A stretch of 64,000 bases of DNA from Rhodospirillales bacterium (GCA_030746775.1 JASLLZ010000001.1:40175-104174); one strand, 5' to 3'; shown: positions 21,951 through 44,082, counted from the first letter of the stretch. Numbers and translations: made by a program. Notes: generated by a model from the letters alone, not told the origin.

Positions 21951-21987
21951 TGTGTTTCTCTCTTTTCTGGTAATGGGATGTGGCCGG

Positions 21988-22827: not shown

Positions 22828-22852
22828 GCTCGGTCCTCTCTCTTCGGGTTGT

Positions 22853-24250
22853 TCAAGCTTGCGCCGGCCGGCCCACAAGGTCGGCATATTCCGCCAAGCT
22901 CGGCGCTTCGGGTAGTCCGGCGATGGCGTTCAGGAGGGCGCCAACGCCCTCGGGCGGCGCGACGGCGGAAACCAGCGACGTGAACTTGGCTTCCAGGTCT
23001 TGGGTGCTCAAGGGCGTTGCGGGATAGCCGCGCGCGATGTCGTTGCGCCGCCTTAGGGTGCGGCCGTCGCGTGTCGTCACCTCGATTATGGTGGCATAAG
23101 AATCGGGGAACGCGTCTTCCAACTCGCCCTCGTCGGCGACGACGCGGGTGCGCCGGCTCAGTTCGGCCAGCGCCGGATCGGTCTCCCTGCGGTCTTCGAA
23201 GAAAACGCCGACCCGGACCTCGCGGTCGGCCACGGCGACGGGCAGGATGTACTGGGCCGAGTGACTCCTCAGCGGATTGTCGTCGATGCAATGGACGCCG
23301 GAGCTAGGGAAATGCATGGCCAGGCTTTCGATATCGCCGGGCGCAAGGTCTTCCTCGTCGACGATGTCGAGAAGGGCATCGACGCCCGGATGCAGGAAGG
23401 CGACGCAGGAAAACGGCTTGATGGCAAGTTCGGTGATACCGTTCCACGTTTTTCCCAGGTCCGCCGTCAACAGCTCGGGCCTGGCATCCCGGCTGAAGGC
23501 ATGGAAGACCGTATGGCCGTGGTCGAAGACCGACACCGGACCGCCGAAGCCGGCCTCGGCAAGCAGTGCCGCCGTTATGCCATTGCGCGCCGCCATGCCC
23601 ATCTGGAAGGGCCGGGCGTTCTCCGTCGGGTCGTTCTCCCAGGCCATCATGCCCGAGGCCTGGCAGGCGCTGAGGCCAAAGGCGCGAACCATGGCTTGCG
23701 CCTCGAGGCCGAGCAAAAAACCGGCCGCCGCGGCGGCGCCGAAGGTGCCGCAAACCGCCGAAGGATGAAATCCGAGCGCATACTGTTGGGCCGGACCGAT
23801 GGCCATGGAAACCCGGTATTCGACCTCGCAGCCAAGCGCCACGGCGGCCAGGAACGCCTCGCCCGAGGCACCCGTGCGTTCGCCCACCGCCAGCGCCGTC
23901 GGGATTAGGACGGCGATCGGGTGCAGGATGGCGCCGGGGTGATAGGGCTCGATATCACAGGCATAGCCGAGCGTGCCGTTGGCCAGCGCCGCGTTGACGC
24001 AATCGGTCTTGAAGCCGTGACCGACCACGGTCGCCTCTGCCTTGCCGCCGTGCCGCCTGACGAACTCGGCAATGAGGGGGCCGGTGGAATAGGCCGGGTT
24101 GGCCGCCGTCAGCATGGCCCCGGTGCCGTCCCGAACCACGTTCAGGGTGCTCTCCTTGACCTCATCGGGCAGGACGGCGGGGCGGAAGGCCCCGACAAAG
24201 GCGGCAAGGGCCTCGGTCAACGGCGCTGGATCGGAGCCTTGCTCGGTCAT
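22853..24250 (-). CDS. MmgE/PrpD family protein
   Basis: ~465 aa; AALANGTLGYACDIEPYHPGAILHPIAVLIPTALAVGE; FHPSAVCGTFGAAAAAGFLLGL. Confidence 0.9.
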   Translation of the reverse strand: MTEQGSDPAPLTEALAAFVGAFRPAVLPDEVKESTLNVVRDGTGAMLTAANPAYSTGPLIAEFVRRHGGKAEATVVGHGFKTDCVNAALANGTLGYACDIEPYHPGAILHPIAVLIPTALAVGERTGASGEAFLAAVALGCEVEYRVSMAIGPAQQYALGFHPSAVCGTFGAAAAAGFLLGLEAQAMVRAFGLSACQASGMMAWENDPTENARPFQMGMAARNGITAALLAEAGFGGPVSVFDHGHTVFHAFSRDARPELLTADLGKTWNGITELAIKPFSCVAFLHPGVDALLDIVDEEDLAPGDIESLAMHFPSSGVHCIDDNPLRSHSAQYILPVAVADREVRVGVFFEDRRETDPALAELSRRTRVVADEGELEDAFPDSYATIIEVTTRDGRTLRRRNDIARGYPATPLSTQDLEAKFTSLVSAVAPPEGVGALLNAIAGLPEAPSLAEYADLVGRPAQA

Positions 24251-24255
24251 CGGCC

Positions 24256-25014
24256 TCAACGCTCGCGAAAGTCGCGTGGCGCGCTGCCCGGCCAACCGAA
24301 GTCGCGCGGCGCCAGGCCGGCGTGGAACCAGCAGATGAAGCTGTAGATGTCATAGACCGGGAGGACGGTATGTTCGCTCAGCGCCCGCGAGAACGGCACC
24401 ATGTTGGTGGTCTCCAGGACGATGGCGCCGACATCGGGATGATTGTTCCTCATCTCGTCGCCGGCATCGAACATGTCCTGTTCGGCGGCGGCCAGATCGA
24501 ATTCCACTTCATCCTTGACGAAGGTGCGTTGCAGCTCTCGCCCATGCTCGCAGCCGACGACCGGAGTATCGAGGGGCGCACCGGCGGCTTTCAGGTGCTC
24601 TTCGGTCAACAGGGATGCGGTCTCGGTGATGATGCCGACCCTTTTGCCGGGCGGCAGCAGGCGCTGGACGAACGGCACCTGCATCAGCGACGAAGACGCC
24701 ACGGGCACGGGGCAGCGGGCGCGCAGGCCTTCCTGGATGACCGAAAGGTAGCCGCAGCTGGTGGCGATGCCGTCGGCGCCCTGGGTGACAAGCTCGTCGG
24801 CGCCGGCGACGAAGGCCTCCAGCAGGTCTTTCGCCTTGTCGACGATAACGGTCTTGAAGGTGGCGCCGCGAATGACCTTGTAGAGCACCGGAAAGGGCCA
24901 GGTCAGGGCGTTGCCGATGTCTCCCGGGACGCGCGGGAATTGGGTCTCCATGATCAAGATGCCGACCCGTGCTCCATAGATGGTCTTGCCGCCAAAGGCT
25001 CTGCGTCCCCCCAT
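24256..25014 (-). CDS. Aspartate/glutamate racemase superfamily protein (paralogue A)
   Basis: DGIATSCGYLSVIQEGL ... GAIVLETTNMVPFSRAL ... YSFICWFHAGL. Confidence 0.85.
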   Translation of the reverse strand: MGGRRAFGGKTIYGARVGILIMETQFPRVPGDIGNALTWPFPVLYKVIRGATFKTVIVDKAKDLLEAFVAGADELVTQGADGIATSCGYLSVIQEGLRARCPVPVASSSLMQVPFVQRLLPPGKRVGIITETASLLTEEHLKAAGAPLDTPVVGCEHGRELQRTFVKDEVEFDLAAAEQDMFDAGDEMRNNHPDVGAIVLETTNMVPFSRALSEHTVLPVYDIYSFICWFHAGLAPRDFGWPGSAPRDFRER

Positions 25015-25139
25015 TCTTTGTTCTCCTTAGGATTCACCGCCGCCGCGAAGACTAGGCGAATTCGGGTAATTGGACAACGCCCGCCCCTGGATTATGCTAC
25101 CGGCTGTTCCATCGCCCTTTGCCAAGGACAGAACGGCCA

Positions 25140-26432
25140 ATGAAACTTACCCGCGCGGAACAAGAGATGCTGGACGGCACCCATGGCGAGGCCCAGCGCC
25201 GGGCCATGGAAGGCCTGGTCCAGTTGGGCGATGCCTACGGCGCCGAGGACATGGTGGAAATCGGCTATGCCCATGTTCATCCCGGCATGGCGCTCTATGC
25301 CCAGGACGTGGAACTGATGGAGGAACTGGTCGAAATAGGTGCCAAGATGGTGGTGCCGGCCTCGGCCAACGTGACCAACGTCGATACCGATAATTGGCGT
25401 CTGACCGGGGCGCCGGAGAAGCTGGCGCGCCTGCACCAGCGCGGGGTCGAGGCGCATACCAAGTTGGGCTGTGCCAGCGCCATGACGTGCACGCCCTATT
25501 GGGCCGGTCACTGGCCGACCTGGAACACCCACATGACGTCGATCGAGTCGGGGGTGACCATCTTCTGCAACTCGGTCCTCGGCGCGCGCTCCAACCGGGA
25601 TGGGTTCTTCTCGGTTTATGCCGGCATGACAGGGCGCTATCCGCGCTTCGGCTATCACCTGGATTCGATGCGCGTCGGTACCCACCTGGTGCATATCGAG
25701 GCGCCCCTGGAGACGACCGCCGACTTCAGTTGCCTGGGCTTTCACGTCGGCAAGACCGTCGGCACCGAGGTGCCGGTCTTCACCGGATTCGAGCGCCGGC
25801 CCAGCCTCGACGACTTGGACTCCATGGGGGTCACGCTGGCGGTTTCGGGCGGCGTTTCGATGTTCATCGTGCCCGGTATCACGCCGCCCTTCGACAGCGT
25901 CGAGGCGGCCTTCGCCGGCGCCAAGCCGGTTGAAGAGATTTCCGTCGGGCAATCGGATATCGAGGCCGTCTACGACCTCTTCGCCGGCGATGCCGGCAGC
26001 GCCGTCGACTTCGTTCACCTGGGCTGTCCCCACGCCTCGTTCGAGGAGATGAAGGACTATGCCGGACTGCTGGCCGGCAAGAAGGTCCACGATGGGGTCG
26101 AGATGTGGGTAACGACCAGCCGCGGCGTCCGCTCGATGGCCGCCGAGGCCGGGTTGTTGAAGACCATCGAGGGCGCCGGGGCCAAGGTCATCACCGATAC
26201 CTGCCCGATGTCGTGCCACTTTGCCCGCACGACGTCGCCCGACGCCGACATCGAACTGCCCGAGCCTCCTATGCGCACCATGGTTCTCGATTCGGCGAAG
26301 CAGGCCAAGTACGTGCGCGACATGGTGCGCTGCGAGACATTGTTTACAAGCACCGAGGCGGCGGTGGAGACGGCGGTTACCGGGCGGTTCGTGCCCCGTT
26401 TCGGGCAAAGCGGCGGCGGAGGCCGGCCATGA
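25140..26432 (+). CDS. Aconitase X catalytic (large) subunit
   Basis: MKLTRAEQEMLDGTHGEAQRRAMEGLVQLGDAYGAEDMVEIGYAHVHPGMALY; C-terminal DTCPMSCHFAR. Confidence 0.9.
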   Translation: MKLTRAEQEMLDGTHGEAQRRAMEGLVQLGDAYGAEDMVEIGYAHVHPGMALYAQDVELMEELVEIGAKMVVPASANVTNVDTDNWRLTGAPEKLARLHQRGVEAHTKLGCASAMTCTPYWAGHWPTWNTHMTSIESGVTIFCNSVLGARSNRDGFFSVYAGMTGRYPRFGYHLDSMRVGTHLVHIEAPLETTADFSCLGFHVGKTVGTEVPVFTGFERRPSLDDLDSMGVTLAVSGGVSMFIVPGITPPFDSVEAAFAGAKPVEEISVGQSDIEAVYDLFAGDAGSAVDFVHLGCPHASFEEMKDYAGLLAGKKVHDGVEMWVTTSRGVRSMAAEAGLLKTIEGAGAKVITDTCPMSCHFARTTSPDADIELPEPPMRTMVLDSAKQAKYVRDMVRCETLFTSTEAAVETAVTGRFVPRFGQSGGGGRP

Positions 26433-26851
26433 GCGGCACCCGCGAAATCCGCGCTCGCGCCATCGTCCACGGCCAGGCCGAGGGTCCGGCCCTGGTGTCG
26501 GCCGAGGAAATCTCTTTCCTCGGCGATCTCGACATCCGCACCGGCGAGGTGGTCGGCGAGGTGCCTTCCATCAAGGGCGCCAAGGTCGGCGGCACGGTGT
26601 TGGTTATCCCCCACAGCGTCGGTTCGGCGGGGGCGTGGCGCTTCCTCTATCAGCTCTTCGTGCACGGCACCCACCCGGCCGCTATCGTCACCGAGGCGCT
26701 GCCCGATTCGTCCCTCGTCCAGGGCGCCATTCTGGCCAAGGTCCCGATCGTCTGCGACCCCGCCGAAGACGTGCTCAAGATCATCAAGACCGGCGACAGG
26801 GTGGAAGTGGACGGCACCGAAGGCGTCATCCGGGTAACACAGGCGGGGTAG
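26429..26851 (+). CDS. Aconitase X swivel domain (small subunit, DUF126)
   Basis: ARAIVHGQAEGPALVSAEEISFLGDLDIRTGEV; VIPHSVGSAGAWRFLYQL; ATGA overlap with the large subunit. Confidence 0.9.
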   Translation: MSGTREIRARAIVHGQAEGPALVSAEEISFLGDLDIRTGEVVGEVPSIKGAKVGGTVLVIPHSVGSAGAWRFLYQLFVHGTHPAAIVTEALPDSSLVQGAILAKVPIVCDPAEDVLKIIKTGDRVEVDGTEGVIRVTQAG

Positions 26852-26889
26852 GGGAGCAGCGAGGCGACGAACCTAGCGATCGCCGGGCC

Positions 26890-27654
26890 TTATCCTAGGG
26901 ACGTGCCGGCGTCCACGTTCAGGCATTCGCCGGTCGTCAGCGCCGCGCCTTCGACCAGCCAAAGGACGTGTTCGGCGATGTCGTCGGGCGTGGCGACGCG
27001 GCCAAGCCTTGATCTCTCTTCGGCATCCTGGATGATCTCTTCATAGCGCTCTGGACCGACGCCATCGAGGACCCAGCGGCCCTTGATGTACTCGGGACAG
27101 ACGGCGTTGACCCGGATCTTGGGCGCCAGGGTCCGTGCCAGCGACCTGGTCATTGTGTTAAGAGCCCCCTTGGACGCCGCGTAGGCGATGCAACTGCCGT
27201 CGCCTATGACACCCGACATCGACGATATGTTGACGATCGCGCCCTCGCCCCGGGCCTTCATGTGGGGTGCGGCGGCGCGGCTCATCTGAAACGGACCGGT
27301 CACGTTGACGGCGAAGATGCGCTGAAAATCATCCCCATCCAGTCCGCCAAGATCGGCGTGATCGACGAACTTGGTGGTGCCGGCGGAGTTGATCAGAACG
27401 TCGATGCGGCCCCAGCGTTCAACCGCGGTTCGAACCATGCGGACGCAGTCCTCGTCGCTGGCGACGTCGCCCCGGCAGGCGAGGGACTGGACACCGAGCT
27501 CCTCGCACTCGGCCACCACCGCGTCCGCTTGCGTCTGGCTGCGCCAGTAGCCGATCAGCACGTTACACTTCCTGGCGGCCAGCGCCCTGGCGCTTGCCCG
27601 GCCGACACCGGTGGCTGCCCCGGTGACGATCGCAACCGCGCCTTGAAGGTTCAT
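26890..27654 (-). CDS. SDR family oxidoreductase
   Basis: VAIVTGAATGVGRASARAL, NSAGTT, IVNISSMSGVIGDGSCIAYAASKGAL. Confidence 0.9.
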   Translation of the reverse strand: MNLQGAVAIVTGAATGVGRASARALAARKCNVLIGYWRSQTQADAVVAECEELGVQSLACRGDVASDEDCVRMVRTAVERWGRIDVLINSAGTTKFVDHADLGGLDGDDFQRIFAVNVTGPFQMSRAAAPHMKARGEGAIVNISSMSGVIGDGSCIAYAASKGALNTMTRSLARTLAPKIRVNAVCPEYIKGRWVLDGVGPERYEEIIQDAEERSRLGRVATPDDIAEHVLWLVEGAALTTGECLNVDAGTSLG

Positions 27655-27669
27655 GATATCCCCCCTCGT

Positions 27670-28794
27670 TTAGTTGCCGGGGCCGCGGCTGCTCATCGGC
27701 CACACCGTTTCGACCCGGCCGTCGCGGACGCCGAGATAGTGGTCATAGAGGTTCGCGGTCGTGTTGCAATGGGCGGGGACGAGGAAGAACCTGTCGCCAA
27801 CCCGAATGTCGAGGTTGGTGTCGTGAAGGATCAGCCGGCCGTGTCCGTCGGACGCCTTTTCGTACTCCAGGCCCGGGTTGGCGCGCACCGTCGGCAGGCC
27901 ACTGTCCAAGGAAACCGCACGGTTGCTGGCGTCGGTCAGGACCCGCCTTGGGGCCGGGCGGCTCACCACCTGGGTGTAGACGAACAGACTTTGCTCGAAA
28001 TCCACGAACGGGCCGCCGTCCTCGGCTTGGTTATCGGTGTAATCGGTGTCCATGAACACGTAGGTGCCAACCTGAAGCTCGGTAAAGACGCCGCTTTCCA
28101 TCTCAAAGCGGTAGGACGCCGTGCCGGCGCCCGTCACCGTTTCCGCAACCAGGCCGTCCCGTTCGAGGACATCCAAGGTGTGCCGCACCTTCGCGGCCGA
28201 ACCTTCGATAAGTTTCCGACGCTCGGCGAATTTCCGGACATGCTGGACTGGGCCGTGATAGGCCTGAAGACCGCCAAAGCGCAGTCCCGGCGCCTCGGTG
28301 ATCGCCCGCGCCAAGGGGAGGGCAGGCTCGCCTGGCTCGACACCACAGCGATCGGTGCCGACGTTGATTTCGACCACGATCCGCAACTCGACACCAAGCT
28401 CCTGGGCCACGTCGCCGAGGGTTGTGACGGCATCGAGGGTATCGACGCAAACACCGATCCGTGCCTGACGCGCCAGGGACGCCAAGCGCACAACCTTGCG
28501 CCGGTCGACGACCTCGTTGCTGACGAACACGTCGGTCACGCCTCCGTCGACCATGGCCTCCGCCTCGCTGACGTTCTGACAGCACACCCCGACGGCGCCC
28601 AAGGCCTCCTGGCGCCGCGCGATATCGGCGGATTTGTGGGTCTTGACGTGGGGGCGAAGGTCGGTGCCCGAGCCGGCAACTTCATCGGCCATGCGCCGCA
28701 GATTGCGCTCAAACGGATCGAGTTCGATGATCAGTGCCGGGGTGTCAACGTCTTCGAGGGGAAGTCCGATTTCCGCGGGCGGCGGGATGGTCAT
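27670..28794 (-). CDS. Fold-type III PLP enzyme of the D-threonine aldolase / D-hydroxyaspartate aldolase-dehydratase (DSD1) family
   Basis: VDTPALIIELDPFERNLRRM; HVKTHKSADIARRQ (PLP Lys); VGVCCQNVSEAEAMVDGGVTDVFVSNEVV; PAHCNTTANLYDHY metal site. Confidence 0.88.
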   Translation of the reverse strand: MTIPPPAEIGLPLEDVDTPALIIELDPFERNLRRMADEVAGSGTDLRPHVKTHKSADIARRQEALGAVGVCCQNVSEAEAMVDGGVTDVFVSNEVVDRRKVVRLASLARQARIGVCVDTLDAVTTLGDVAQELGVELRIVVEINVGTDRCGVEPGEPALPLARAITEAPGLRFGGLQAYHGPVQHVRKFAERRKLIEGSAAKVRHTLDVLERDGLVAETVTGAGTASYRFEMESGVFTELQVGTYVFMDTDYTDNQAEDGGPFVDFEQSLFVYTQVVSRPAPRRVLTDASNRAVSLDSGLPTVRANPGLEYEKASDGHGRLILHDTNLDIRVGDRFFLVPAHCNTTANLYDHYLGVRDGRVETVWPMSSRGPGN

Positions 28795-28820
28795 GGCCAG
28801 GATTCCTCAGCGCCACCCGC

Positions 28821-29399
28821 CTAGCGGGATTCGGTCCAGCTTTCGGAGAACGCCAGGGCGCAGGTGCTAAAGGGTCTTTCTTCGCGCTCTCGCGGCCAGG
28901 GCCGGCCCGTTGCCTCGATCCCGTTCAGTGTCGGCCGCGCGCCAAGGGCGGGGATCAGGACCGTACAGACCCCATAGGGCTTGTCCGGCTCGGCGCCCGC
29001 CTGGGTGTGGATGAGCAGCGGATCGCCGATGTCGTACCAGGTCAGGGTCATCTCGTCGTCCCTGGCCTTGATGCGCTCGGTCCAGAAATAGCGCGGATCG
29101 CCTGTTTTGGTGAAACGGGCGTCGATGACGGGGATCGCGGTGTCGGCCGTCTCGGCGTTGAGCATTCCCTGAACGGTGGTTTGGAGCCAACGCGCCATGG
29201 CGATGTTGTCGGCGTAAATGCGCCACCGGTTTTCCGTCAGTTCGCTCTTGACGTAAAGCACGTGGCCGGGCCCAGCCGGGCTAAAGAGGACACGCCAGAA
29301 GCTGGCATTAGTGGTGTAATCATCGTCGTCGGTCTCGCTGAGGCGGATGAACGGGTTCTCGCCGGTCAGGACGACACGATTGGGGTCGGCGGTGCTCAT
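28821..29399 (-). CDS. Uncharacterised protein
   Basis: 192 aa intact ORF starting MSTADPNRVVLTGENPFIRLSETDDDDYTTNASFWRVLF; same strand and upstream of the DTA-family gene; no family recognised. Confidence 0.65.
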   Translation of the reverse strand: MSTADPNRVVLTGENPFIRLSETDDDDYTTNASFWRVLFSPAGPGHVLYVKSELTENRWRIYADNIAMARWLQTTVQGMLNAETADTAIPVIDARFTKTGDPRYFWTERIKARDDEMTLTWYDIGDPLLIHTQAGAEPDKPYGVCTVLIPALGARPTLNGIEATGRPWPREREERPFSTCALAFSESWTESR

Positions 29400-29530
29400 G
29401 GTGGTTCCTCCGGACTTGTTGCCGAAGCCGGATCGTAGACGAGAATGGGACGCCATGATAGCTTGCCGGCCCAACGACGGCGCCGTGACAGGCAAGTTCG
29501 GGCGCGCCAAGACGCCCCAAGGGAGAGGCC

Positions 29531-30490
29531 ATGAAACCCGAAGTCCTGATGATCATCGCCAAAACCAATCCGGTTCAGCTTGAACCAGCGGTCGAGGCCG
29601 AATACACGGTCCACAAGCTGGCCCAGACCGACATGGCCGACTGCTTATCGCACATCGGCGAATACAAGGACCGTGTGCGCGCCTTGGTTACCCAAACCGC
29701 GCCCGGCGCCGATGCCACGCTGATCGGGGCGCTTTCGAAGCTGGAGGTCATCGTCTGTTCGGGCGCCCACGTCGACGCCATCGACCTGGCCGCCGCCGCG
29801 GCGCGCGGCATCCCGGTCACCAATACGCCGGGTATTTCCTATGACGACGTCGGCGACTACGTCATGGCCCAGATCCTGGCCACGTCGCGGCGCTTCTCCG
29901 AGGCCGACCGCTTCGTGCGTTCGGGGCGCTGGCACCATGAGGCGATGGGATTCGGCCACCGCGTCAACAACAGAAAACTGGGTATCGTCGGTCTTGGCCC
30001 CATCGGTCGCGTCGTCGCCAAGCGCGGCCGATGCTTCGACATGGAGGTTTGCTACACCGACATCAAGAAAATGGCCGACGTACCCTACCGCTACTTCGAC
30101 GATGTGGTGGCGATGGCGCGCGAGGTCGATTTCATGGCCGTTACCTGCAAGAGCGGGGCGGAAACCCATCACATCATCGGCTGGCCGGTATTCGAGGCCC
30201 TCGGGCCGACCGGCGTCTTCGTCAACATCTCGCGCGCTGTGGTCGATGACGCGGCGCTGATCAAGGCGCTCGGCGAGGGCGTCATCCGCGGCGCCGGCAT
30301 CGATGTATTCGAGACCTCGCCCCATGTGCCCGAGGAGCTCTTGCGTCTCGACAACGTGGTCCTGTCGCCTCACGTCGCCGGCAACACCGAAGAAGTGACC
30401 CAGGCCCAGAGCGATCTGGTGATGGCCAACCTCAGCGCCCATTTCGCCGGCCAGCCGTTGCTCAACCCGGTGGAGCCGGGGGCCCACTAG
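29531..30490 (+). CDS. D-2-hydroxyacid dehydrogenase (paralogue 2)
   Basis: MKPEVLMIIAKTN; GIVGLGPIGRVVAKRGRCFDMEV; VVLSPHVAGNTEE. Confidence 0.88.
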   Translation: MKPEVLMIIAKTNPVQLEPAVEAEYTVHKLAQTDMADCLSHIGEYKDRVRALVTQTAPGADATLIGALSKLEVIVCSGAHVDAIDLAAAAARGIPVTNTPGISYDDVGDYVMAQILATSRRFSEADRFVRSGRWHHEAMGFGHRVNNRKLGIVGLGPIGRVVAKRGRCFDMEVCYTDIKKMADVPYRYFDDVVAMAREVDFMAVTCKSGAETHHIIGWPVFEALGPTGVFVNISRAVVDDAALIKALGEGVIRGAGIDVFETSPHVPEELLRLDNVVLSPHVAGNTEEVTQAQSDLVMANLSAHFAGQPLLNPVEPGAH

Positions 30491-31423
30491 ATGAAGCCCG
30501 AAGTGTTGCTGGTCTGTGAAGACCCGCCCCAGATGCTGCCGGCGCTGGAAGAGCATTTCACGGTTCATGTGCAGTTGGACGCCCACGAGACCGACGTGCT
30601 CCCCGCCGCCACGAACGTTCGCGCCTTGATAACGGGAACCTTGGTTGGGGCCGACAAACGACTCATCGATTCCCTCGCCAAGATAGAGATTGTCGCCTGC
30701 ACCGGCGGCCATGTGGACCGCATCGATGTGGCGGCGATCCAGGCGCGCGGCATCCCCTTGACCAACGCGCCCGGCATTTCAGCCCCCGATGTCGCCGAAC
30801 TGGGAGTAGCGCTTATTCTCGGCGTATCGCGGCGCTTGGTCGAGAGCCACTGCTTCGTCCGCGACGGCCGCTGGCCGGACGGTGAAATAGGCTTCGGACG
30901 CCGCGTCGGTGGCAAGAAAGTGGGCATCCTCGGCCTCGGCGCCATCGGGCGTATAGCGGCGCGCCTCCTTGGCGCCTTCGACATGGATATCTGTTATTCG
31001 GGCCCCAGGCGAAAGGACGACGCGCCCTATCCCTTCTTCGACGATCTGGTGGAAATGGCGCACCACGTGGATTTCCTGTTGCTTAGCTGTCCCGAGGCGC
31101 CGGAGACGCGCAATTTGGTCGACGCCGCGGTGCTCAAGGCGTTGGGGCCGGAAGGCATTTTGATCAACGTGGCGCGCGGTCACGTCGTCGACGAGACGGC
31201 GCTCATCGAGGCGCTTGCCGCCGGAGTCATCGCGGGCGCCGGGCTTGATGTTTTTGAGGACGAGCCCCACGTGCCCGAGGCCTTGATTGCGATGGATAAC
31301 GTCATCCTCCAGGCCCATGTCGGCGCCTTTACCAACGAGGCGAAACTGGAGATGGTGGACGTTACAATGAACAACCTGCTCAACCACTTCGCGGGCCAGC
31401 CCCTGCTGTCACCGGTCGGGTAA
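30491..31423 (+). CDS. D-2-hydroxyacid dehydrogenase (paralogue 3)
   Basis: MKPEVLLVCEDPP; GILGLGAIGRIAARLLGAFDMDI; ILINVARGHVVDETAL; starts at the base after the paralogue 2 stop. Confidence 0.88.
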   Translation: MKPEVLLVCEDPPQMLPALEEHFTVHVQLDAHETDVLPAATNVRALITGTLVGADKRLIDSLAKIEIVACTGGHVDRIDVAAIQARGIPLTNAPGISAPDVAELGVALILGVSRRLVESHCFVRDGRWPDGEIGFGRRVGGKKVGILGLGAIGRIAARLLGAFDMDICYSGPRRKDDAPYPFFDDLVEMAHHVDFLLLSCPEAPETRNLVDAAVLKALGPEGILINVARGHVVDETALIEALAAGVIAGAGLDVFEDEPHVPEALIAMDNVILQAHVGAFTNEAKLEMVDVTMNNLLNHFAGQPLLSPVG

Positions 31424-31440
31424 ACCCAAAGGAGGAAACC

Positions 31441-32790
31441 GTGACCATGGACGTCGTCGATCTCAGCTTTCCGATTCATGAAGACATGCCGCACGACGAT
31501 CTGGGACCCAAGTTCTGGACCCGGCTCGGCCATGCCTATACGCGCCAGATTTACCAAAATACCCAGTCGCGCGCCGGGCGCGTCTTCTTCATGACCGATC
31601 ACACCGGCACTCACCTGGACGGGCCCTTGCGCTTCGATCCCCGGGGCATGGCGGTCGAGGAATTGGCCCTCGAAGACGTGATCCTGCCGGCCCGCGTCTT
31701 CGATCTGCGCCACGTTGGGCGGGGCGGCGAGATCGGTCCCGACGAGTTGGAGGCCGCCGGCGTCAAAGTGGCGGGGCGCGAGGCGGCGGTGCTTTGGACC
31801 GGCCACGACCTGCATTATGACAGCCCCGATTACTTCTGGCATCGGCCGCGGCTGTCAGCGGGCGGCGCGGAGTGGCTGGTCGCCCGGGGAGCGCCGATGG
31901 TGGCCGCCGACTTCCCCGGCATCGGCGCGCCCAACGACGACCGCTACGAGGTCAAGCGCATCTTGCACCGGGGCGGCGCGCTGACCGTCGAACAACTGTG
32001 CAACCTGGACAAGGTGGAGGGCCGGGAGTGGACCTTGGCGGCGGCGCCCTTGCGCATTCGGGGCGGCACCGGCTCGCCCTTGCGCGCCGCGGCCCTGGTC
32101 GGTCCACCGCCGGCACGCCTCATCGATCTGACCTTGGACATCTACAAGGAAATGCCGTCCCTCGGCGCGGTCCCCACCTATTGGTCGCGCGCCACCCATG
32201 CCATCACCGAGTTCTTTTACAAGGGTGAGCTTTCCTATCAGACCACCGCCCTTTTTCTCAGCGAGCACGCGGGCACCCATTTCGACGTGCCCTACCATTT
32301 CGACCCCGCCGGGCGCGCCATGGAGGACTTCGCGCTGTCCGAGCTTGTGGTGCCGGCCCGGGTTCTGGACCTCACCCATAAGCGGCCCCTTGAGGCGATC
32401 GGCGCCGACGACCTGGAAAAGGCCTTGGCCAAGAGCGGAACGACGATCGGGCCGGGCGACGGCGCGGTGGTGTGGACCGGTCATTCCAGCAATTACTACA
32501 CGCGCGACGACTACACCACCCATCGCCCGTTCATCAGCATCGACGGGGCCGAGTGGCTGGTGGCGAAAAACCCGGCCGTCGTGATTACCGACCTCATCGG
32601 TTTGGACCCGCCGGACGACCTGACCTCGCCCATCCACAATGCCTTGCTGGGCAACGGGCTGTGCATGCTTCAGGTGCTGACCAACCTTGGCCAGCTGGTG
32701 GAAGGCAAGTGGCGCATCGCCATCCTTCCCTTGAACCTGACCGGCGGCACCGGCGCCCCGTTGCGCGCCTTCGCCTTGCCCGAGGGCTGA
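31441..32790 (+). CDS. Tandem-fused cyclase/kynurenine-formamidase-like protein (two PF04199-type domains)
   Basis: Two repeats each with a HxGTHxDxP metal motif: DHTGTHLDGPLRF and EHAGTHFDVPYHF; each ends ILPLNLTGGTG/AAPLRIRGGTG. Confidence 0.88.
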   Translation: MTMDVVDLSFPIHEDMPHDDLGPKFWTRLGHAYTRQIYQNTQSRAGRVFFMTDHTGTHLDGPLRFDPRGMAVEELALEDVILPARVFDLRHVGRGGEIGPDELEAAGVKVAGREAAVLWTGHDLHYDSPDYFWHRPRLSAGGAEWLVARGAPMVAADFPGIGAPNDDRYEVKRILHRGGALTVEQLCNLDKVEGREWTLAAAPLRIRGGTGSPLRAAALVGPPPARLIDLTLDIYKEMPSLGAVPTYWSRATHAITEFFYKGELSYQTTALFLSEHAGTHFDVPYHFDPAGRAMEDFALSELVVPARVLDLTHKRPLEAIGADDLEKALAKSGTTIGPGDGAVVWTGHSSNYYTRDDYTTHRPFISIDGAEWLVAKNPAVVITDLIGLDPPDDLTSPIHNALLGNGLCMLQVLTNLGQLVEGKWRIAILPLNLTGGTGAPLRAFALPEG

Positions 32791-32794
32791 CGGC

Positions 32795-33829
32795 GTGGGT
32801 GCACCGCCGGACGACCCCTACGCCCGCGCCAGGAAAGGCGTCAGCCCCGAGGCGGCAGCGTTGTTCGAGGACGCGCTTGTCTGGGACATGACACTGCCGT
32901 GGGGCACGCCCTGCGCCGAACCCGATGTCACCTTGCCCCGTTTTCAAGCCGCCTCCGTCGACCTGATCTCGCTGACCGTGCAGGACGGGCAGGAGACAGG
33001 CGTCGCCGAAGCGGTTCGCCACATGGCCCGGGTGACCCGCGACATCGCCGAGCGCGCCGATCGGATGGTGCTGTGCCGCACCGCTGACGACATCCTCGCC
33101 GCCAAGGCCGCCGGCAAACTGGCCCTGATCTTCAATCACCAGGAAACCAATCCCCTGGAGGGCCGCGTCGAGATGGTCCAGGCCTATTACGACCTGGGCG
33201 TGCGCCACATACTACTCGCCTACAACAAGAGGAACCGGGCCGGCGACGGCTGCGCCGAGGCGACCGACGCCGGGCTCAGCCGTTTCGGCATCCGTGCCGT
33301 CGAAGAGATGAACCGGGTCGGCATGCTGGTCGATGGCACCCACTGCGGCTACCGCACCTCCATGGAGGCGATCGAGGTCTCGTCGGCGCCTGTCATCTTC
33401 TCGCATTGCGATGCCCATGCGGTATTTCCCCACTACCGCAATATTCGCGACGATCAGATCAAGGCTTGCGCTGCCGCCGGCGGTGTCATCGGTGTCAACG
33501 GCGTCGGCGCCTTCCTGGGCGACGCCGAGGCGAGCACGGAGAGCATGTTTCGGCACATCGACCACATGACACGACTGGTCGGCGCCGAACACGTGGGCAT
33601 CGGCCTCGATTATCTGCGTGATACGGACCGCTTCTGGACGCAAATGAAGCGCACGCCCGAGCTATGGCCCCTCATTGACGGCAAGCCGCACCAGGCAACC
33701 CGGTTCGTTCAGCCCGAGCAGCTAGTGGAACTTACCGATCTGATGCTTGAGCGCGGTTACGCCGCCGCCGACGTGCGTGGCATCCTGGGCGGTAATTTCC
33801 TGCGCCTGGCGCGCCAAGTCTGGAAGTGA
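32795..33829 (+). CDS. Membrane dipeptidase (peptidase M19) homologue with altered N-terminal metal motif
   Basis: GMLVDGTHCGYRTSMEAIEVSSAPVIFSHCDAHAV and HVGIGLDY are M19-like; N-terminal DGHxD motif replaced by VWDMTLPWG. Confidence 0.8.
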   Translation: MGAPPDDPYARARKGVSPEAAALFEDALVWDMTLPWGTPCAEPDVTLPRFQAASVDLISLTVQDGQETGVAEAVRHMARVTRDIAERADRMVLCRTADDILAAKAAGKLALIFNHQETNPLEGRVEMVQAYYDLGVRHILLAYNKRNRAGDGCAEATDAGLSRFGIRAVEEMNRVGMLVDGTHCGYRTSMEAIEVSSAPVIFSHCDAHAVFPHYRNIRDDQIKACAAAGGVIGVNGVGAFLGDAEASTESMFRHIDHMTRLVGAEHVGIGLDYLRDTDRFWTQMKRTPELWPLIDGKPHQATRFVQPEQLVELTDLMLERGYAAADVRGILGGNFLRLARQVWK

Positions 33830-33988
33830 CGGGCGCCACGGCCCGGCGGCGGATAGCGGCCTCCGACCTTGTCGCCGCGCCGGCGGCGCGCGGTTCAAAC
33901 GGAGCGATAAATTTGCTAGACTCGAATGATCGGTACCGAACAATGTTCCGCGCTCGCGGATACGGGTCCATCATTGGGGGAGACCGAC

Positions 33989-34081
33989 ATGGCCTACAAC
34001 AAACAGCTCACTCTCTGGTTGGTCGGAGCGGCGGGGATTTTCCTGGTCGTTTACATACTCACTGAGCTTATGACCGGCTAA
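33989..34081 (+). CDS. Putative 30-aa single-TM membrane peptide
   Basis: ATG..TAA translation MAYNKQLTLWLVGAAGIFLVVYILTELMTG; GGGGGAGA purine-rich RBS just upstream; one hydrophobic helix. Below the supplied ORF-track cutoff. Confidence 0.55.
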   Translation: MAYNKQLTLWLVGAAGIFLVVYILTELMTG

Positions 34082-34211
34082 ACGGCCACAGCTCGATACC
34101 GCAAGGGTTTGAACGCGCCGCCGATGGCCCCGGCGGGCGCCAAGTGCTAATCTTCATGCGTTGCCGTGAGACGGCCCCGTTCCCCGGGGCGCCAGAAGGG
34201 GTGAGCAAACG

Positions 34212-35147
34212 ATGACGGATAATGCACGGGGCGGCACCGGCAAGGCTACTGACGCGGCGCCCCCGGCGACACCGGAACGGGAGCGCCGAAGGGTCGCCCG
34301 GCCCGAATTCAATGTTTCCGAAGCGAGCCCGGACCGAGGCGTTTCGGGTTGGAACGCCGACGGCGCCTATCCCTATTCCGAGAAGATGAAGCGCAAGGTC
34401 TATGAGCGCCACAAGAACGATTTGCAGATCGAACTGTTGAAGGTCCAGCGCTGGGTCAAGGAAACGGGAGAGAAGATCATCATGATCTTCGAGGGCCGGG
34501 ACGCGGCCGGCAAGGGCGGCACCATCAAGAGGTTCATGGAACACATGAATCCGCGTGGCGCCAGGGTTGTCGCCCTGGAGAAACCGACCGATCAGGAGCG
34601 CGGTCAGTGGTACTTCCAGCGCTATGTCCGCCACCTGCCGACGCGCGGCGAAATGGTCCTCTTTGACCGCTCTTGGTATAACCGCGCCGGCGTCGAGCGG
34701 GTCATGGGGTTTTGCACCAAGAACGAATACGAAGTGTTCATGCGCCAGGCGCCGGAGTTCGAACGCATGCTGATCAAGTCCGGCAACCGGCTGTTCAAGT
34801 ACTGGTTTTCGGTCAGCCGCGGAGAACAGTCGCGCCGCTTTCAGTCGCGGCGCGTCGATCCCCTGAAACAATGGAAGTTGAGCCCCGTGGATATCCAGTC
34901 CCTGGGCAAGTGGGACGACTATACGGATGCCAAGGAGTTGATATTTCGCCACACCGATACGGTGGAGGCGCCGTGGACGGTGATCAAGTCGGACGACAAA
35001 AAACGCGCTCGCCTCAATTGCATGCGACATTTCCTGCACGGTCTTCCCTATCCCGACAAGAACCGCAAGGTCGTCACCTCGCCCAATTCTTTGATCGTCG
35101 GTCCTGCTTCCGCCGTTTTCGAGGCGGACGAGGCGGTGCGCCGCTGA
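34212..35147 (+). CDS. ppk2: Polyphosphate kinase 2
   Basis: IFEGRDAAGKGGTIKRFMEHMNPRGARVVALEKPTDQERGQWYFQRYV; LFDRSWYNRAGVERVMGF; NCMRHFL. Confidence 0.93.
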   Translation: MTDNARGGTGKATDAAPPATPERERRRVARPEFNVSEASPDRGVSGWNADGAYPYSEKMKRKVYERHKNDLQIELLKVQRWVKETGEKIIMIFEGRDAAGKGGTIKRFMEHMNPRGARVVALEKPTDQERGQWYFQRYVRHLPTRGEMVLFDRSWYNRAGVERVMGFCTKNEYEVFMRQAPEFERMLIKSGNRLFKYWFSVSRGEQSRRFQSRRVDPLKQWKLSPVDIQSLGKWDDYTDAKELIFRHTDTVEAPWTVIKSDDKKRARLNCMRHFLHGLPYPDKNRKVVTSPNSLIVGPASAVFEADEAVRR

Positions 35148-35226
35148 TCGTCGCGTCTGGTTATAGGGCGCCGCCGTGCTATCATGGCCGGGCGTCGGGT
35201 AGATTTCGACAGAGTGTGGAGTACAG

Positions 35227-36468
35227 ATGGCCGAGACCGGCAAGCAGAGGCCAGGAAGCGATAGCTACGCGGACAGTGGTGCCTTCGGTGACGGCTTGTC
35301 GCCGCAGGAACATTTGGATTCGCTGGATAGAGTGCTGCATGAACTGTGGCGCCTGGGCCGCAATATCATCCTTTGCTGGACGCCGCGCCAACGGGGAATC
35401 GACGTCCTGGTCATTCCTTTCCATCTGATCGCCGAGGTTGCATCGGGTCCTGGCGTTGCCTCGAAGAAGGCGGCCCAGGGCGTGCCTTTCATGTCGGAGG
35501 ACTATTTCGAGAAACTGATCTCCGGGCCGAAGCAGGTGACGTCGAGAAAGATGGGCCAAATCGGACGTATGCTGAGCCACAAACCCCATCACATCGACTT
35601 GCCCTTCGTCGCCGGCGACGATCTGGGATTCAAGACCATCGAGTCCCTTGTCCGGCGGTTTGGCATCTCCTACGTCAACGACCGCGCCGTGGCGCTTTTC
35701 GACATTGTCAATTTTTCGATTAATCCGCCGCTTGTCCAGGTGACCCAATTGAACAGCCTGGCCTATTCGGTGAATTCCGCCCACTCGAGGATGCTGTCGA
35801 AGGAGATCGACATCTCCTTCGCCCGCACGACGACCGGCGACGGTTTCTACATCTGGAACCGGGACCGGAGCATCCAGGCCAACGTGAACCTGTACCATTT
35901 CATGCATCTGGTGCTGGCCGACAACGCCATCGCGCGCAGCAAATCCAAGCACAGCGCGACACCGGTTCTGCGCGCCTGCTTCAACGTTGGCAGCCATTAC
36001 GAGTTCTATCAGTCCGAGGGGCTGAGCCCGACCACCTACAACTACATCGTCGGCGACGTCACCATCGAACTGGCGCGGATGATCGAAAGCGCCTTGCCCG
36101 GACAAGTGGTGATGGGCGATTTCCACGTGCCCATGCCGGACGTGGAAACGAACAAGGTGCGCAAGTTCAATTCTCTTCAGTTCATCGAAAAGACCCAGGA
36201 AACGCTGTCCAGTCTCGAGGGGTTGACCCTATCGGGCGACGAGATCGATTCCATCAAGTGCTATCTGACCGGAGAGAGGCAGAAGGATGGGGCCTTCAAC
36301 ATCAAACGCTACCGGGTTTCGGACAAGCACGGCCGCACGCGCGACGTATTCAATGCCAAGATCAATATTTACCGCAAGAAGGGCGAGGCTATCTTCCTTG
36401 GTTCCCAGGATCACGAATTGGAAGGGTTCAAGGCGGTGGAAAGACGGCTGCCCAAGCGCCGGCGTTAG
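35227..36468 (+). CDS. Divergent class III nucleotidyl cyclase-like protein
   Basis: Cyclase homology-like motifs: ALFDIVNFS (metal Asp), FARTTTGDGFYIW (second Asp), YIVGDVTIELARMIESALPGQVVMGDF resembling IGDTVNLAARLE...PGQI. Confidence 0.6.
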   Translation: MAETGKQRPGSDSYADSGAFGDGLSPQEHLDSLDRVLHELWRLGRNIILCWTPRQRGIDVLVIPFHLIAEVASGPGVASKKAAQGVPFMSEDYFEKLISGPKQVTSRKMGQIGRMLSHKPHHIDLPFVAGDDLGFKTIESLVRRFGISYVNDRAVALFDIVNFSINPPLVQVTQLNSLAYSVNSAHSRMLSKEIDISFARTTTGDGFYIWNRDRSIQANVNLYHFMHLVLADNAIARSKSKHSATPVLRACFNVGSHYEFYQSEGLSPTTYNYIVGDVTIELARMIESALPGQVVMGDFHVPMPDVETNKVRKFNSLQFIEKTQETLSSLEGLTLSGDEIDSIKCYLTGERQKDGAFNIKRYRVSDKHGRTRDVFNAKINIYRKKGEAIFLGSQDHELEGFKAVERRLPKRRR

Positions 36469-36497
36469 CCCCACCCGCGCCGAAGGGACGGACCGTC

Positions 36498-37208
36498 ATG
36501 TGCGGGCGCTATACACAGATATCGTCATGGTCGGAATTGGTCCGCCTATACCGGATCACCGACGCCGCGACACCCCTCAACCTCAGGCCGCGCTATAACA
36601 TTGCGCCGACCCAGGACGTTTCCGTGGTCCGCGCCGCGCCGGACGGCGGCGGTCGCACCCTCACGCGGATGCGCTGGGGCCTGGTGCCGTCGTGGGCCAA
36701 GGACATTGCGATCGGCGCGCGCCTGATCAACGCCCGCGCCGAGACAGTGGCCGAGAAACCCTCCTTCCGCGATGCGTATCGCCGCCGCCGTTGCCTGATT
36801 CCGGCCGACGGGTTCTATGAATGGCAGAAGCGGCCCGGCGGGCCGAAGCAACCCTACCTGATCACGCTCAAGGACCAACGACCGATCGCCTTTGCCGGCC
36901 TGTGGGAATGCTGGAACAAGGCGCCCGACGGCCGGCCCGTCCAAACCTGCGCCATCATCACGACCGAGGCCAACGATCTGTTGCGGCCCATCCATGGACG
37001 CATGCCGGTGATTTTGGACGCGGCGGACCACGATGCGTGGCTCGACGCGGACGGTCATGACGGCGCCGCGGCGGCGCTGCTGCGGCCCTATTCGTCCGCC
37101 GACATGCGGGCCGGGCCGGTCGGCGCCTATGTCAACAGCGCCAGGAACGACGATCCGAAGTGCGTCGAACCGGGGCAGGTCGAAGGCGGCGACAGGTTGT
37201 TGCTGTGA
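36498..37208 (+). CDS. SOS response-associated peptidase (YedK/HMCES family)
   Basis: MCGRYTQ catalytic Cys2; NIAPTQ; RWGLVPSWAKD; INARAETVAEKPSFRDAYRRRRCLIPADGFYEW. Confidence 0.95.
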   Translation: MCGRYTQISSWSELVRLYRITDAATPLNLRPRYNIAPTQDVSVVRAAPDGGGRTLTRMRWGLVPSWAKDIAIGARLINARAETVAEKPSFRDAYRRRRCLIPADGFYEWQKRPGGPKQPYLITLKDQRPIAFAGLWECWNKAPDGRPVQTCAIITTEANDLLRPIHGRMPVILDAADHDAWLDADGHDGAAAALLRPYSSADMRAGPVGAYVNSARNDDPKCVEPGQVEGGDRLLL

Positions 37209-37356
37209 TCGTCAAGCCCGTCATTGGCCGTGACTTCCCAACGTCGGATACCCTTGGTAAATGTTTCGTTTGTGGTAGGGGTGGCGACGGCATACAAATA
37301 GACCGGTGCGGGGCGTTCAATCGGGGAAGCGGGTCGCGGTTCCGCTTGGCCAGCGA

Positions 37357-38895
37357 ATGTATCAGGAAACCGAACTGAAGCTGCTGTTTCGCTCTCGCGA
37401 CCAATCGCTGCTTCATGCGCTGCCGCTCATTGGCGAGAAAGCCAAGGGGCGCCCGCTGCTCAGCGTCTATTACGATACACCGCGTCGGGATTTGCGCCGC
37501 CGGGGCGTCGTCTTGCGCGTACGAAAGGCGGACGGCCGCTACATTCAAGGGGTCAAGTCCAAGGGCCGGCGGATCGGCGGCGGAACGGTGCGCCCCGAAA
37601 TCGAGTGTCCCGTCCCCACCGAGGCGCCGCTGCTTTCGGCCATTGCCGATGGCCGGCTCAAGCGCCTCGTCACCCGCGCCGCGGCGAACGGCCTGGAACC
37701 GGTCTTTCACACCGCCTTTACGCGCACCAGCCACCGTCTTTCGTTCGACGACGGGGGCCGGGTCATGCTTGATATCGATGTTGGCAAGATCGTGGCGGCG
37801 ACGGCGACGGAACCCATATGCGAACTGGAACTGGAACTGGAGGCGGGGCCGGCCCATCGGCTGTTCGATGTGGCGCGCCAGATCAACGCCCATGTGCCGC
37901 TACGCGTCTCCGTCGCCAGCAAGGCCAGTCGCGGTTACGCCCTGGCGGCCGGGGAAACACCGGGGTGGAGCAAGTTCGCCCGGCCCGATCTTACCGGCAA
38001 GGTGACGGTGGAGGACGCCATTACCCTTGCCGTGCAGGGCTGTCTCGACCACCTGCTGGGCAACGAGACCTGCCTGCTCGAGACCGACGACCCCGAGGGT
38101 GTGCACCAGGTACGTATCGCCCTGCACCGGCTGCGTTCGACGCTCAGGCTGTTCCGTTCCGTCCTGCCCGCCGACCAATATCGGTGGCTGACCGATGAGA
38201 CCAAATGGCTGACCGGACGGTTGGCGGCGGCGCGCGACTGGGATGTGTTCTCGGACGAGATCGTTGGTCCGGTGGCCGTCCAATTTTCCGCCGAGCCCGG
38301 TTTTGCCGTTCTGCGCTCGGCGCTTGTCCACAGACGGCGGACGAGCCGCCGTGCCGCGCGCCGGGCCGTGCGCTCGAAACGCTACACCGAATTCGTCCTC
38401 ACGCTTAGCGGCTGGCTGGCCCGGCGCCAATGGCGTAGCCACAAGCCCGACAAGGGTTCGGAGCGGGTGCTCGGACCAGTGGCCAGCTTCGCCGACACCT
38501 TGATCGCCAGGCGCCACAGACAGGTCCGCAACGACGGTCACAAGTTCGCGACCATGACCGCCGAGCAACGCCACCAGTTCCGCATCGACGTAAAGAAGCT
38601 GCGCTACGCCACCGACCTCTTCGGGTCGCTCTATCGGGGCAAGGGCGCCACGGACTACCTGGGCCGGCTGGGCAAGCTGCAAGACAGCCTGGGCTATGCC
38701 AACGACGTCGCCGTCGCCGAGGACCTGACGCGCGGCCTTTGCCAGTCGACCAAGGGAGACGACGGTGCCCACGGCCGGCGCGCCGGCGCCATCGTCCTCG
38801 GCTGGCACGCTCACGCCATGGCACGCGCCGCGGGACCGCTTGCCAAGCGCGTCAAGCGTTTCATCGCCACCCGTCCGCCCCACACCAAGCGTTGA
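37357..38895 (+). CDS. CYTH and CHAD domain protein (triphosphate tunnel enzyme + polyP-binding domain)
   Basis: N-terminal ETELKL (ExExK) with SVYYDTPRRDLRRRGVVLRVRK; C-terminal CHAD (DDPEGVHQVRIALHRLRSTLRLF, DVFSDEI, FRIDVKKLRYATDLF). Confidence 0.9.
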   Translation: MYQETELKLLFRSRDQSLLHALPLIGEKAKGRPLLSVYYDTPRRDLRRRGVVLRVRKADGRYIQGVKSKGRRIGGGTVRPEIECPVPTEAPLLSAIADGRLKRLVTRAAANGLEPVFHTAFTRTSHRLSFDDGGRVMLDIDVGKIVAATATEPICELELELEAGPAHRLFDVARQINAHVPLRVSVASKASRGYALAAGETPGWSKFARPDLTGKVTVEDAITLAVQGCLDHLLGNETCLLETDDPEGVHQVRIALHRLRSTLRLFRSVLPADQYRWLTDETKWLTGRLAAARDWDVFSDEIVGPVAVQFSAEPGFAVLRSALVHRRRTSRRAARRAVRSKRYTEFVLTLSGWLARRQWRSHKPDKGSERVLGPVASFADTLIARRHRQVRNDGHKFATMTAEQRHQFRIDVKKLRYATDLFGSLYRGKGATDYLGRLGKLQDSLGYANDVAVAEDLTRGLCQSTKGDDGAHGRRAGAIVLGWHAHAMARAAGPLAKRVKRFIATRPPHTKR

Positions 38896-38909
38896 CCCGG
38901 GAGAAGCCG

Positions 38910-39551
38910 ATGTTCACCATACTCGTCACCAATACCAAGGGCGGCTGCGGCAAGACGACCATCGCCACCGGCCTGGCGGGAGCCTTCGCCCAAACCGGAT
39001 GGCGCACCGTCCTGGCCGATTGCGACCGCCAGAAATCGAGCCTCGGCTGGGCCTCGCGCCGCCCCGCGGGCGCGCCGGCCATCACCCCCGTCAACTGGTC
39101 GAAGGACACCCAGCCCTTGCCGCCGAAGACCCAGCTTCTGGTCATCGACTCGCCGGCGGCCCTCAAGCGCAAGCGCCTGGATGAGCTGGTCCGCATCGCC
39201 GATGTCGTCATCCTGCCGGTTCTGCCCTCGGTGTTCGACGAGACCACGACGCGCCGCTTCCTGTCGACGCTGGACAAGCTGAAGCCGGTTCGCAAGGGCA
39301 AGCGTCCGATAGCGGTGGTCGGCAACCGGATGCGCGCGCGCACCCGGACGGCGGCGCGGCTCAACAAGTTTATGAGCGAAGTGGGACAGCGCTCGGTGGC
39401 CAGTCTGCGCGATACCCAGCTCTACCCGGCGAGCGCCGCCGCCGGGCTGTCGCTCTTTGACCTGGCAACGCGGCGCGCGGCGAACTTCGTCGATGACTGG
39501 CAGCCGCTGCTTTCCTTCATCGACGAGATCAAGGCGTTGAGGGAAGGATAG
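38910..39551 (+). CDS. ParA family ATPase (orphan, no adjacent ParB)
   Basis: MFTILVTNTKGGCGKTTIATGLAGAFAQTG deviant Walker A; LLVIDSPAAL; 213 aa. Confidence 0.88.
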   Translation: MFTILVTNTKGGCGKTTIATGLAGAFAQTGWRTVLADCDRQKSSLGWASRRPAGAPAITPVNWSKDTQPLPPKTQLLVIDSPAALKRKRLDELVRIADVVILPVLPSVFDETTTRRFLSTLDKLKPVRKGKRPIAVVGNRMRARTRTAARLNKFMSEVGQRSVASLRDTQLYPASAAAGLSLFDLATRRAANFVDDWQPLLSFIDEIKALREG

Positions 39552-39588
39552 GCGGGCGGGACGACCGCCAACTCGAACGAAACTCCGC

Positions 39589-40347
39589 TCAGCGCTCGCG
39601 GTAGTCGCGCGGGGCACTGCCCGGATGGCCGAAATCCCTCGGCTCCAGCCCGGCGTGGAACCAGGTGAAGAAGCTGTAGACGCTGAAGACCGGCACCCCG
39701 ATGCTGTCGCGGAGAGCTTTCGCGAAGGGTGCAAAGTTGTGGCATTCATAGACCACGGCCCCGACCTCTGGATGCCGAGACATCAGGTCCTGACCGGCAT
39801 CCAGCATGTCTTGCTCGGCAAGTCCCGCATCCAATTCGGTCTTGCCGAAGTGGAACTTGCGATAAAACTCCCGGCCGTTCTGAAGACCGGCAACCGGCGT
39901 GTTGGGTGCCGCCCCCGCCGCTATTAGGTGATCGGCATCCAAGGCATCACTGTTCGAGGTGATGACACCGACCCGCTTGCCGGGAGGGAGAAGTTTCTCG
40001 ACCAAGGGAATCTGCATCAATGAGCTTGCCGCGACCGGAACCTTGCAGTGGGCGGCAAGCTTTGCCTGGAAAATAGAAAGGTAACCACCGGTGGTGGCGA
40101 TGCCGTCGGCACCTTCGCTGACCAACCTGGCGGCGGTATCGAGGAAGGCGTCGAGGACATCGACGCCACGTTCCTCAATGACCCGATTAGGCGTCGCCCC
40201 CGGGACCACTCCGTAAAGAACCGGGAACGGCCAAGTCCTGGCGTTGCCCACGTCTCCCGGCATGCGCGGTGTTCGAACATCCAGCATCAGAATGCCAAGC
40301 CGCGCACCGTAAACATTCTTGCCTCCGTAGACCACTCGTCCCGTCAT
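39589..40347 (-). CDS. Aspartate/glutamate racemase superfamily protein (paralogue B)
   Basis: Clearly paralogous to 24256..25014; DGIATTGGYLSIFQAKL ... GAVVYECHNFAPFAKAL ... YSFFTWFHAGL. Confidence 0.85.
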   Translation of the reverse strand: MTGRVVYGGKNVYGARLGILMLDVRTPRMPGDVGNARTWPFPVLYGVVPGATPNRVIEERGVDVLDAFLDTAARLVSEGADGIATTGGYLSIFQAKLAAHCKVPVAASSLMQIPLVEKLLPPGKRVGVITSNSDALDADHLIAAGAAPNTPVAGLQNGREFYRKFHFGKTELDAGLAEQDMLDAGQDLMSRHPEVGAVVYECHNFAPFAKALRDSIGVPVFSVYSFFTWFHAGLEPRDFGHPGSAPRDYRER

Positions 40348-42839: not shown

Positions 42840-42932
42840 CGGGATACAGACTCTTCAGCCGTGTTCTTAAATCGTTCGGCGGCAAAGCGGTGGCGGGGGA
42901 TGGGTCCCCCCGCCACCAGACTTAAGCTTCCG

Positions 42933-43790: not shown

Positions 43791-44082
43791 TGAACATCTC
43801 CTCCTAGATTTCGCTCTATACGTTAAGCTGCTCAGTTCAACGCACCAATTCGCGCCATGCTCTTTGGCATGTTTCGCGGACGAGTACATTCCTGTTCGAA
43901 GCTCGGGCCTTTCAGCCTTCTCCTTGAATGAAGTATAACCATCACGGCTTTGGCTGACAATGCGGGGTAGGCTGCGGGTAACGCTCATCGTTGCCGCGCC
44001 GCTACCAGCCAATGGCGCGGGCGTCGCGGCGGTGGTCGGCCCGGCTTGACAGCCGACCCGGACCGTGCGACGAGCGGCGGCC

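Follow-up and report, generated by a model that had tools for sequence, protein, structure and literature searches.

Two racemase-fold paralogues retaining different single cysteines in a Rhodospirillales bacterium: members of an expanded PRK07475 family with repeated, asymmetric cysteine loss

A 64,000-nucleotide stretch of the genome of a Rhodospirillales bacterium (GCA_030746775.1 JASLLZ010000001.1:40175-104174; hereafter the window) carries on its minus strand, 14.6 kb apart, two related genes that we call paralogues A and B (Table 1). Each open reading frame (ORF) encodes 252 amino acids, and the two products give a full-length, gapless alignment with 57% identity (E 2e-109), bearing out an original prediction, made from the sequence alone, that two related genes lie here. 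Its assignment of both to the Asp/Glu racemase superfamily is supported by family score and by fold. The NCBIfam model NF005679/PRK07475, with a curated cut-off of 231 bits, gives 294.5 bits for A and 280.6 bits for B; the Asp/Glu/hydantoin racemase superfamily profile PF01177 (Pfam threshold 31) gives 37.6 and 23.6 bits, respectively. Confident AlphaFold models (predicted local distance difference test scores of 93.2 for A and 92.7 for B) have the two-domain racemase fold, and Foldseek matches both to arylmalonate decarboxylase (AMDase) and to glutamate, aspartate and hydantoin racemases in the PDB, with template-modelling scores of about 0.5-0.6.

Neither protein has a cysteine at both catalytic positions of a two-cysteine racemase. 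In a family-profile alignment, columns 87 and 202 match the catalytic-cysteine motifs of the solved Asp/Glu racemases 2eq5, 1jfl and 2zsk; the profile was required, as PDB sequence searches from A or B singly gave no useful match. In the models of both proteins these sites lie at strand-to-helix junctions, one in each half. A reads ATSCGYL at site 87 and LETTNM at site 202 (C87/T202) and B reads ATTGGYL and YECHNF (G87/C202), so the claim that each keeps a different single cysteine holds position by position. Nearby substitute cysteines had been named as the observation that would overturn it; none was seen adjoining the lost site in the alignment of A or B, and no relocation of the cysteine was found in either protein. 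Because the orthologues of A and B in the congener (the sole other genome of the genus that was searched) retain identical cysteine states, sequencing error is excluded. Between the two species, dN and dS (nonsynonymous and synonymous divergence) are 0.024 and 0.34 for A and 0.040 and 0.552 for B. The ratio is thus ∼0.07 for both, in the same range as for intact two-cysteine paralogues; A and B are under purifying selection, and a reading of them as decaying pseudogenes is rejected. Residues P42, G88, Q94, P104, S108 and E201 are invariant throughout.

The family has 15 copies in this genome, 13 besides A and B, and 19 in the congener. Among relatives in the order, 34 of 40 genomes lack any copy, and where the family is present it is usually as a single copy; in a sample of the phylum, 18 of 399 genomes had a copy above the cut-off, nearly all of them just one, and one other alphaproteobacterial group has expanded to 6-9 copies (the large searches scored only the first 6-7 candidates in each genome, which makes their copy counts lower bounds). 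The source assembly comprises 203 contigs with an estimated contamination of 6.55%; despite this estimate, the congener shares synteny at the A locus and has a B orthologue that is 93% identical. Elsewhere in the genome, on contig C155 (L014:8128-12270), five PRK07475 genes form a tandem array with several DAO-type oxidases and a thiamine pyrophosphate (TPP) enzyme nearby. The array is kept in the congener (L122:8778-12918); one of its members has lost the first cysteine and reads TNVGY.

Both cysteines are present in 159 of 188 surveyed family members (about 85%); 27 depart from this state and two are gapped at the sites. The usual motifs are [N/T/S/D]CGF and ECTN, with NCGF itself in 96 and ECTN in 124 of the 188. 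Half of the copies in this genus (17/34) have lost one cysteine; among the roughly 154 from elsewhere, 10 deviate from the two-cysteine state, one being a divergent sequence. The Cys/Thr arrangement of A is shared by a second paralogue, C11, and by the congener orthologues of both, and within the survey was seen in this genus only. A C110/C135 type with Cys/Ala or Cys/Gly occurs in this genus and in genome G023, the Gly/Cys arrangement of B in this genus and in Acetobacteraceae, and a cysteine-less type with Gly/Asn or Gly/Thr in five betaproteobacterial genomes; a C155c type has Val/Cys.

In trees computed with the two cysteine columns removed, the A, C110/C135, C155c and cysteine-less sets each form one clade, the cysteine-less set nests within the B clade, and the A and B clades are not joined in the best trees. 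A single origin of the second-cysteine loss in the A and C110 types is rejected by the approximately unbiased (AU) test (p = 8e-5); the second cysteine was lost at least twice. The A clade is marked by C202T (4/4) and the B clade by C87G (12/12) and T203H (11/12). His203 accompanies the loss of Cys87 and persists after the loss of Cys202: the betaproteobacterial relatives of B have neither cysteine and retain the histidine. These cysteine-less members are the sole above-cut-off family copy in their genomes, and B-type genes are present without any A-type gene found in both Acetobacteraceae and Betaproteobacteria. Because the betaproteobacterial members are cysteine-less and solitary, the B clade would depend on neither thiol and would not require A as a partner. 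In the C110/C135 subfamily (L016, L017, L125, L128, L131, L132) the first cysteine is kept, the second is Ala or Gly, and an extra invariant cysteine stands at residue 200, two residues upstream of the second site. Cysteine at residue 200 is also found in some cysteine-less relatives of B, and in both groups the cysteine may possibly have relocated.

A is the first gene of a strand that continues with PrpD-, aspartate-dehydrogenase-, mandelate racemase/muconate lactonizing (MLE)- and 2-hydroxyacid-dehydrogenase-type genes, whereas B closes a strand in which it follows an ATP-binding cassette (ABC) transporter with an amino-acid-type binding protein, an arrangement that had been correctly described (Table 1).

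Table 1. Paralogues A and B, their active-site codons and neighbouring genes (positions in the window)
Feature	Position	Strand	Remark
Paralogue A, NF005679/PRK07475 family; Cys87 kept, Thr202	24256..25014	(-)	
A codon Cys87, first catalytic-cysteine position	24754..24756	(-)	computed from ORF; column from alignment
A codon Thr202, second catalytic-cysteine position, Cys lost	24409..24411	(-)	computed from ORF; column from alignment
Paralogue B, NF005679/PRK07475 family; Gly87, Cys202, His203	39589..40347	(-)	
B codon Gly87, first catalytic-cysteine position, Cys lost	40087..40089	(-)	computed from ORF; clade 12/12
B codon Cys202, second cysteine retained	39742..39744	(-)	computed from ORF and alignment
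B codon His203; Thr or Ala in two-cysteine relatives	39739..39741	(-)	His in 11/12 B-clade members
MmgE/PrpD-family gene, downstream of A	22853..24295	(-)	order same in congener
Aspartate-dehydrogenase-like gene	21988..22887	(-)	syntenic in congener
MLE-type gene; listed ORF start may be too far upstream	20826..22283	(-)	syntenic in congener
D-2-hydroxyacid dehydrogenase-type gene	19866..20807	(-)	syntenic in congener
Aconitase X-type gene, divergent from A	25119..26432	(+)	syntenic in congener
BhcC-like (3-hydroxy-D-aspartate aldolase) gene; 420 bits against an NCBIfam cut-off of 690	27670..28794	(-)	syntenic in congener
ABC transporter upstream of B, whole	40433..44132	(-)	
ABC ATPase	40433-41437	(-)	
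ABC permeases	41191-42177 and 42093-42839	(-)	
SBP_bac_3 solute-binding protein	42933-44132	(-)	

Two-cysteine copies lie in other surroundings. An acetolactate-synthase-like TPP enzyme is found within 5 kb of 56 of 87 two-cysteine loci (an MLE gene at 15, a DAO-type oxidase at 12) and at no A-, B- or C110-type locus that was inspected. Outside the genus, a TctC receptor adjoins the B-type gene in all five long loci; paralogue C11 is located with amidases. The aspartate-dehydrogenase- and BhcC-like neighbours of A suggested a hydroxyaspartate route, which we do not claim since both score below their NCBIfam cut-offs. At one locus (L042:6794-10470) TctC, a cysteine-less B-type protein, AtuA and DUF4387 form an operon-like run, and an AtuA-DUF4387 pair also lies near C11 (L012:3-1280); a literature search on DUF4387 and PrpD-type contexts found nothing. 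Elsewhere in the window, a 449-amino-acid ORF of the cyclase family (31441-32790) contains two tandem cyclase stretches and adjoins a membrane dipeptidase-type gene. By eye, PPK2-like, SRAP-like and CYTH-CHAD-like genes occupy 34212-38895, between the A and B regions, and the frame after the aconitase X large-subunit gene (26105-26851) resembles its small subunit.

We think it probable (at roughly 0.6) that A and B arose through a lineage-specific radiation of PRK07475 with independent neofunctionalization, A as an unbalanced Cys/Thr enzyme and B as a His203-type one. This reading draws on copy number, conserved cysteine states, separate clades, changed gene context and fold. Several copies would independently have lost one catalytic cysteine and given rise to conserved new subfamilies in new operons. 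In A, Cys87 would act on one face of an amino- or hydroxy-acid and take its alpha-proton, leading either to stereo-biased racemization or epimerization or to elimination of a beta-group, and the product would feed the operon that A heads. In the B clade, replacement of Cys87 by Gly together with Thr203 by His would have been followed, in Betaproteobacteria, by replacement of Cys202 with Asn or Thr. Because the clade lost Cys87 and gained His203, and some of its lineages also lost Cys202, B would no longer depend on a two-thiol pair; His203 would be its most likely acid/base or ligand-positioning residue, and B, in a transporter operon, probably processes an imported compound. That the B clade represents a new type of enzyme built on the Asp/Glu racemase fold, one that abandoned the thiol pair stepwise and came to rest catalysis on His203, is a more tentative proposal, which we hold as one possibility. 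Several observations weigh against the reading as a whole. The AU test rejects neither A and B clades as sisters (p = 0.25) nor one origin of the first-cysteine loss (p = 0.24), support for the B clade is moderate (70/85), and one of its members has Phe, not His, at 203. The comparison of contexts is confounded by taxonomy, TctC-type receptors being abundant in Burkholderiales and most copies without the cysteine pair coming from one genus.

In one reading offered by the original prediction, A and B form a special complementary pair that works on the two opposite faces of a substrate, with B in uptake and A in catabolism. The genes are separated by 14.6 kb, their products retain opposite cysteines, each gene lies in an uptake or catabolic strand, and the sister relationship that the AU test leaves standing would suit such a pair. 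Nevertheless, the genome has 13 further copies, B-type genes occur in Acetobacteraceae and Betaproteobacteria without A-type genes, and the clades are unjoined in the best trees. Moreover, one chain supplies both cysteines of a site in this family, as in OpaE (Cys90/Cys199; PMC12661438), and because of this two one-cysteine proteins would not complete one site. The proposed tie between uptake and catabolism is also weakened: the gene following B differs in the congener, and nothing closely related to the ABC binding protein was found there, although the congener's B contig begins inside the gene and the latter result is not conclusive. We consider partnership very unlikely, and action as complementary halves is not supported; A and B are not a matched pair, being two of 15 copies from separately evolving subfamilies that departed from the two-cysteine enzyme.

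A rather unlikely, although realistic, alternative is that both are ordinary single-cysteine racemases with a biased direction only, in which the second proton comes from water or from another residue, and that their role is plain amino-acid racemization. RacX of Halocola ammonii (Ala79/Cys193) racemizes in both directions (PMC12838360) and EcL-DER, the E. coli YgeA protein (Thr83/Cys197), is quasi-unidirectional (PMC8142540, PMC12661438); an aspartate-dehydrogenase-type gene stands beside A and likewise beside a two-cysteine relative in Agrobacterium. The cysteine-less branch of the B clade has neither thiol to use in this way, and the T203H substitution that goes with the loss of Cys87, together with the new operon contexts, suggests that the difference goes beyond a bias in direction. 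These precedents also bear on the earlier claim that loss of one cysteine means other chemistry: altered chemistry or direction is likely, but the claim was too strong given that EcL-DER and RacX are racemases and MMP0739 is predicted to be a unidirectional one, and since RacX works in both directions with Ala/Cys, ‘not a racemase’ does not follow from one missing cysteine. Enzyme families often give rise to catalytically dead copies, and A and B, each lacking a catalytic residue, might be such copies serving as regulators or binding proteins. Their retention of one cysteine and of the invariant residues, together with purifying selection equal to that on intact copies, makes this improbable. 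Decarboxylation of a malonate-type acid by an AMDase-like B is at least as doubtful. With Gly at the first site and Cys at the second, B reproduces G74/C188 of AMDase (PMC4996985), and AMDase structures are the best Foldseek matches of B; they also top the list for A, so that the fold match does not discriminate, and the cysteine-less sisters of B lack the proton donor of AMDase.

If A and B arose by such a radiation, the points of interest are its repeated, asymmetric cysteine loss and the cysteine-less, His-marked clade. A genus with 15-19 copies, half of them single-cysteine, amounts to a natural mutagenesis series from a two-base racemase to one-base or thiol-free forms, and the cysteine-less relatives of B offer a clean test of whether thiols are dispensable.

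Among known systems, PRK07475, a subfamily of unassigned function, is reported to stand nearer than other bacterial racemase subfamilies to Alma1, the algal dimethylsulfoniopropionate (DMSP) lyase that makes dimethyl sulfide, and to be without DMSP lyase activity itself (PMC10349084); we found no other paper naming it. Alma1 is proposed to take a proton next to the carboxylate, eliminating dimethyl sulfide (PMC5395565), a precedent for beta-elimination by A. Judged from that report and from motifs rather than by alignment, the cysteine motifs of Alma1 and PRK07475 are similar, those of the Alma1 type being [DN]CGF and ECT[EQ] (PMC10349084); after the second cysteine Alma1 has E/Q, the bacterial subfamily mostly N. 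Alma1 requires both C108 and C265, whereas A and B each have one cysteine of the pair. The two Alma1-type motifs occur together in none of the 188 members, and membership among DMSP lyases was rejected for A (SCGY/ETTN) and B (TGGY/ECHN). B, and not A, shares the Gly/Cys arrangement of AMDase, an enzyme that decarboxylates, and B matches it in fold; the published AMDase motifs LMGTSLSF and ILLSCGGL are absent from B, which reads ATTGGYLSI and AVVYECHNF, and membership was rejected. Like RacX, B has lost the first cysteine and kept the second; RacX, unlike B, is a proven broad two-way racemase and is close to EcL-DER. A and EcL-DER each have one catalytic cysteine replaced by Thr, at the second site in A and the first in EcL-DER. 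MMP0739, the Cys/Thr mirror image of EcL-DER and predicted to be unidirectional (PMC8142540), has the same arrangement as A; both proteins are distant from A in sequence and belong to another subfamily. By score A and B fall within PRK07475/NF005679, most members of which, unlike these two, have both cysteines. The single-cysteine state of A and B is real and conserved; their superfamily is an ordinary one, and the state is partly precedented.

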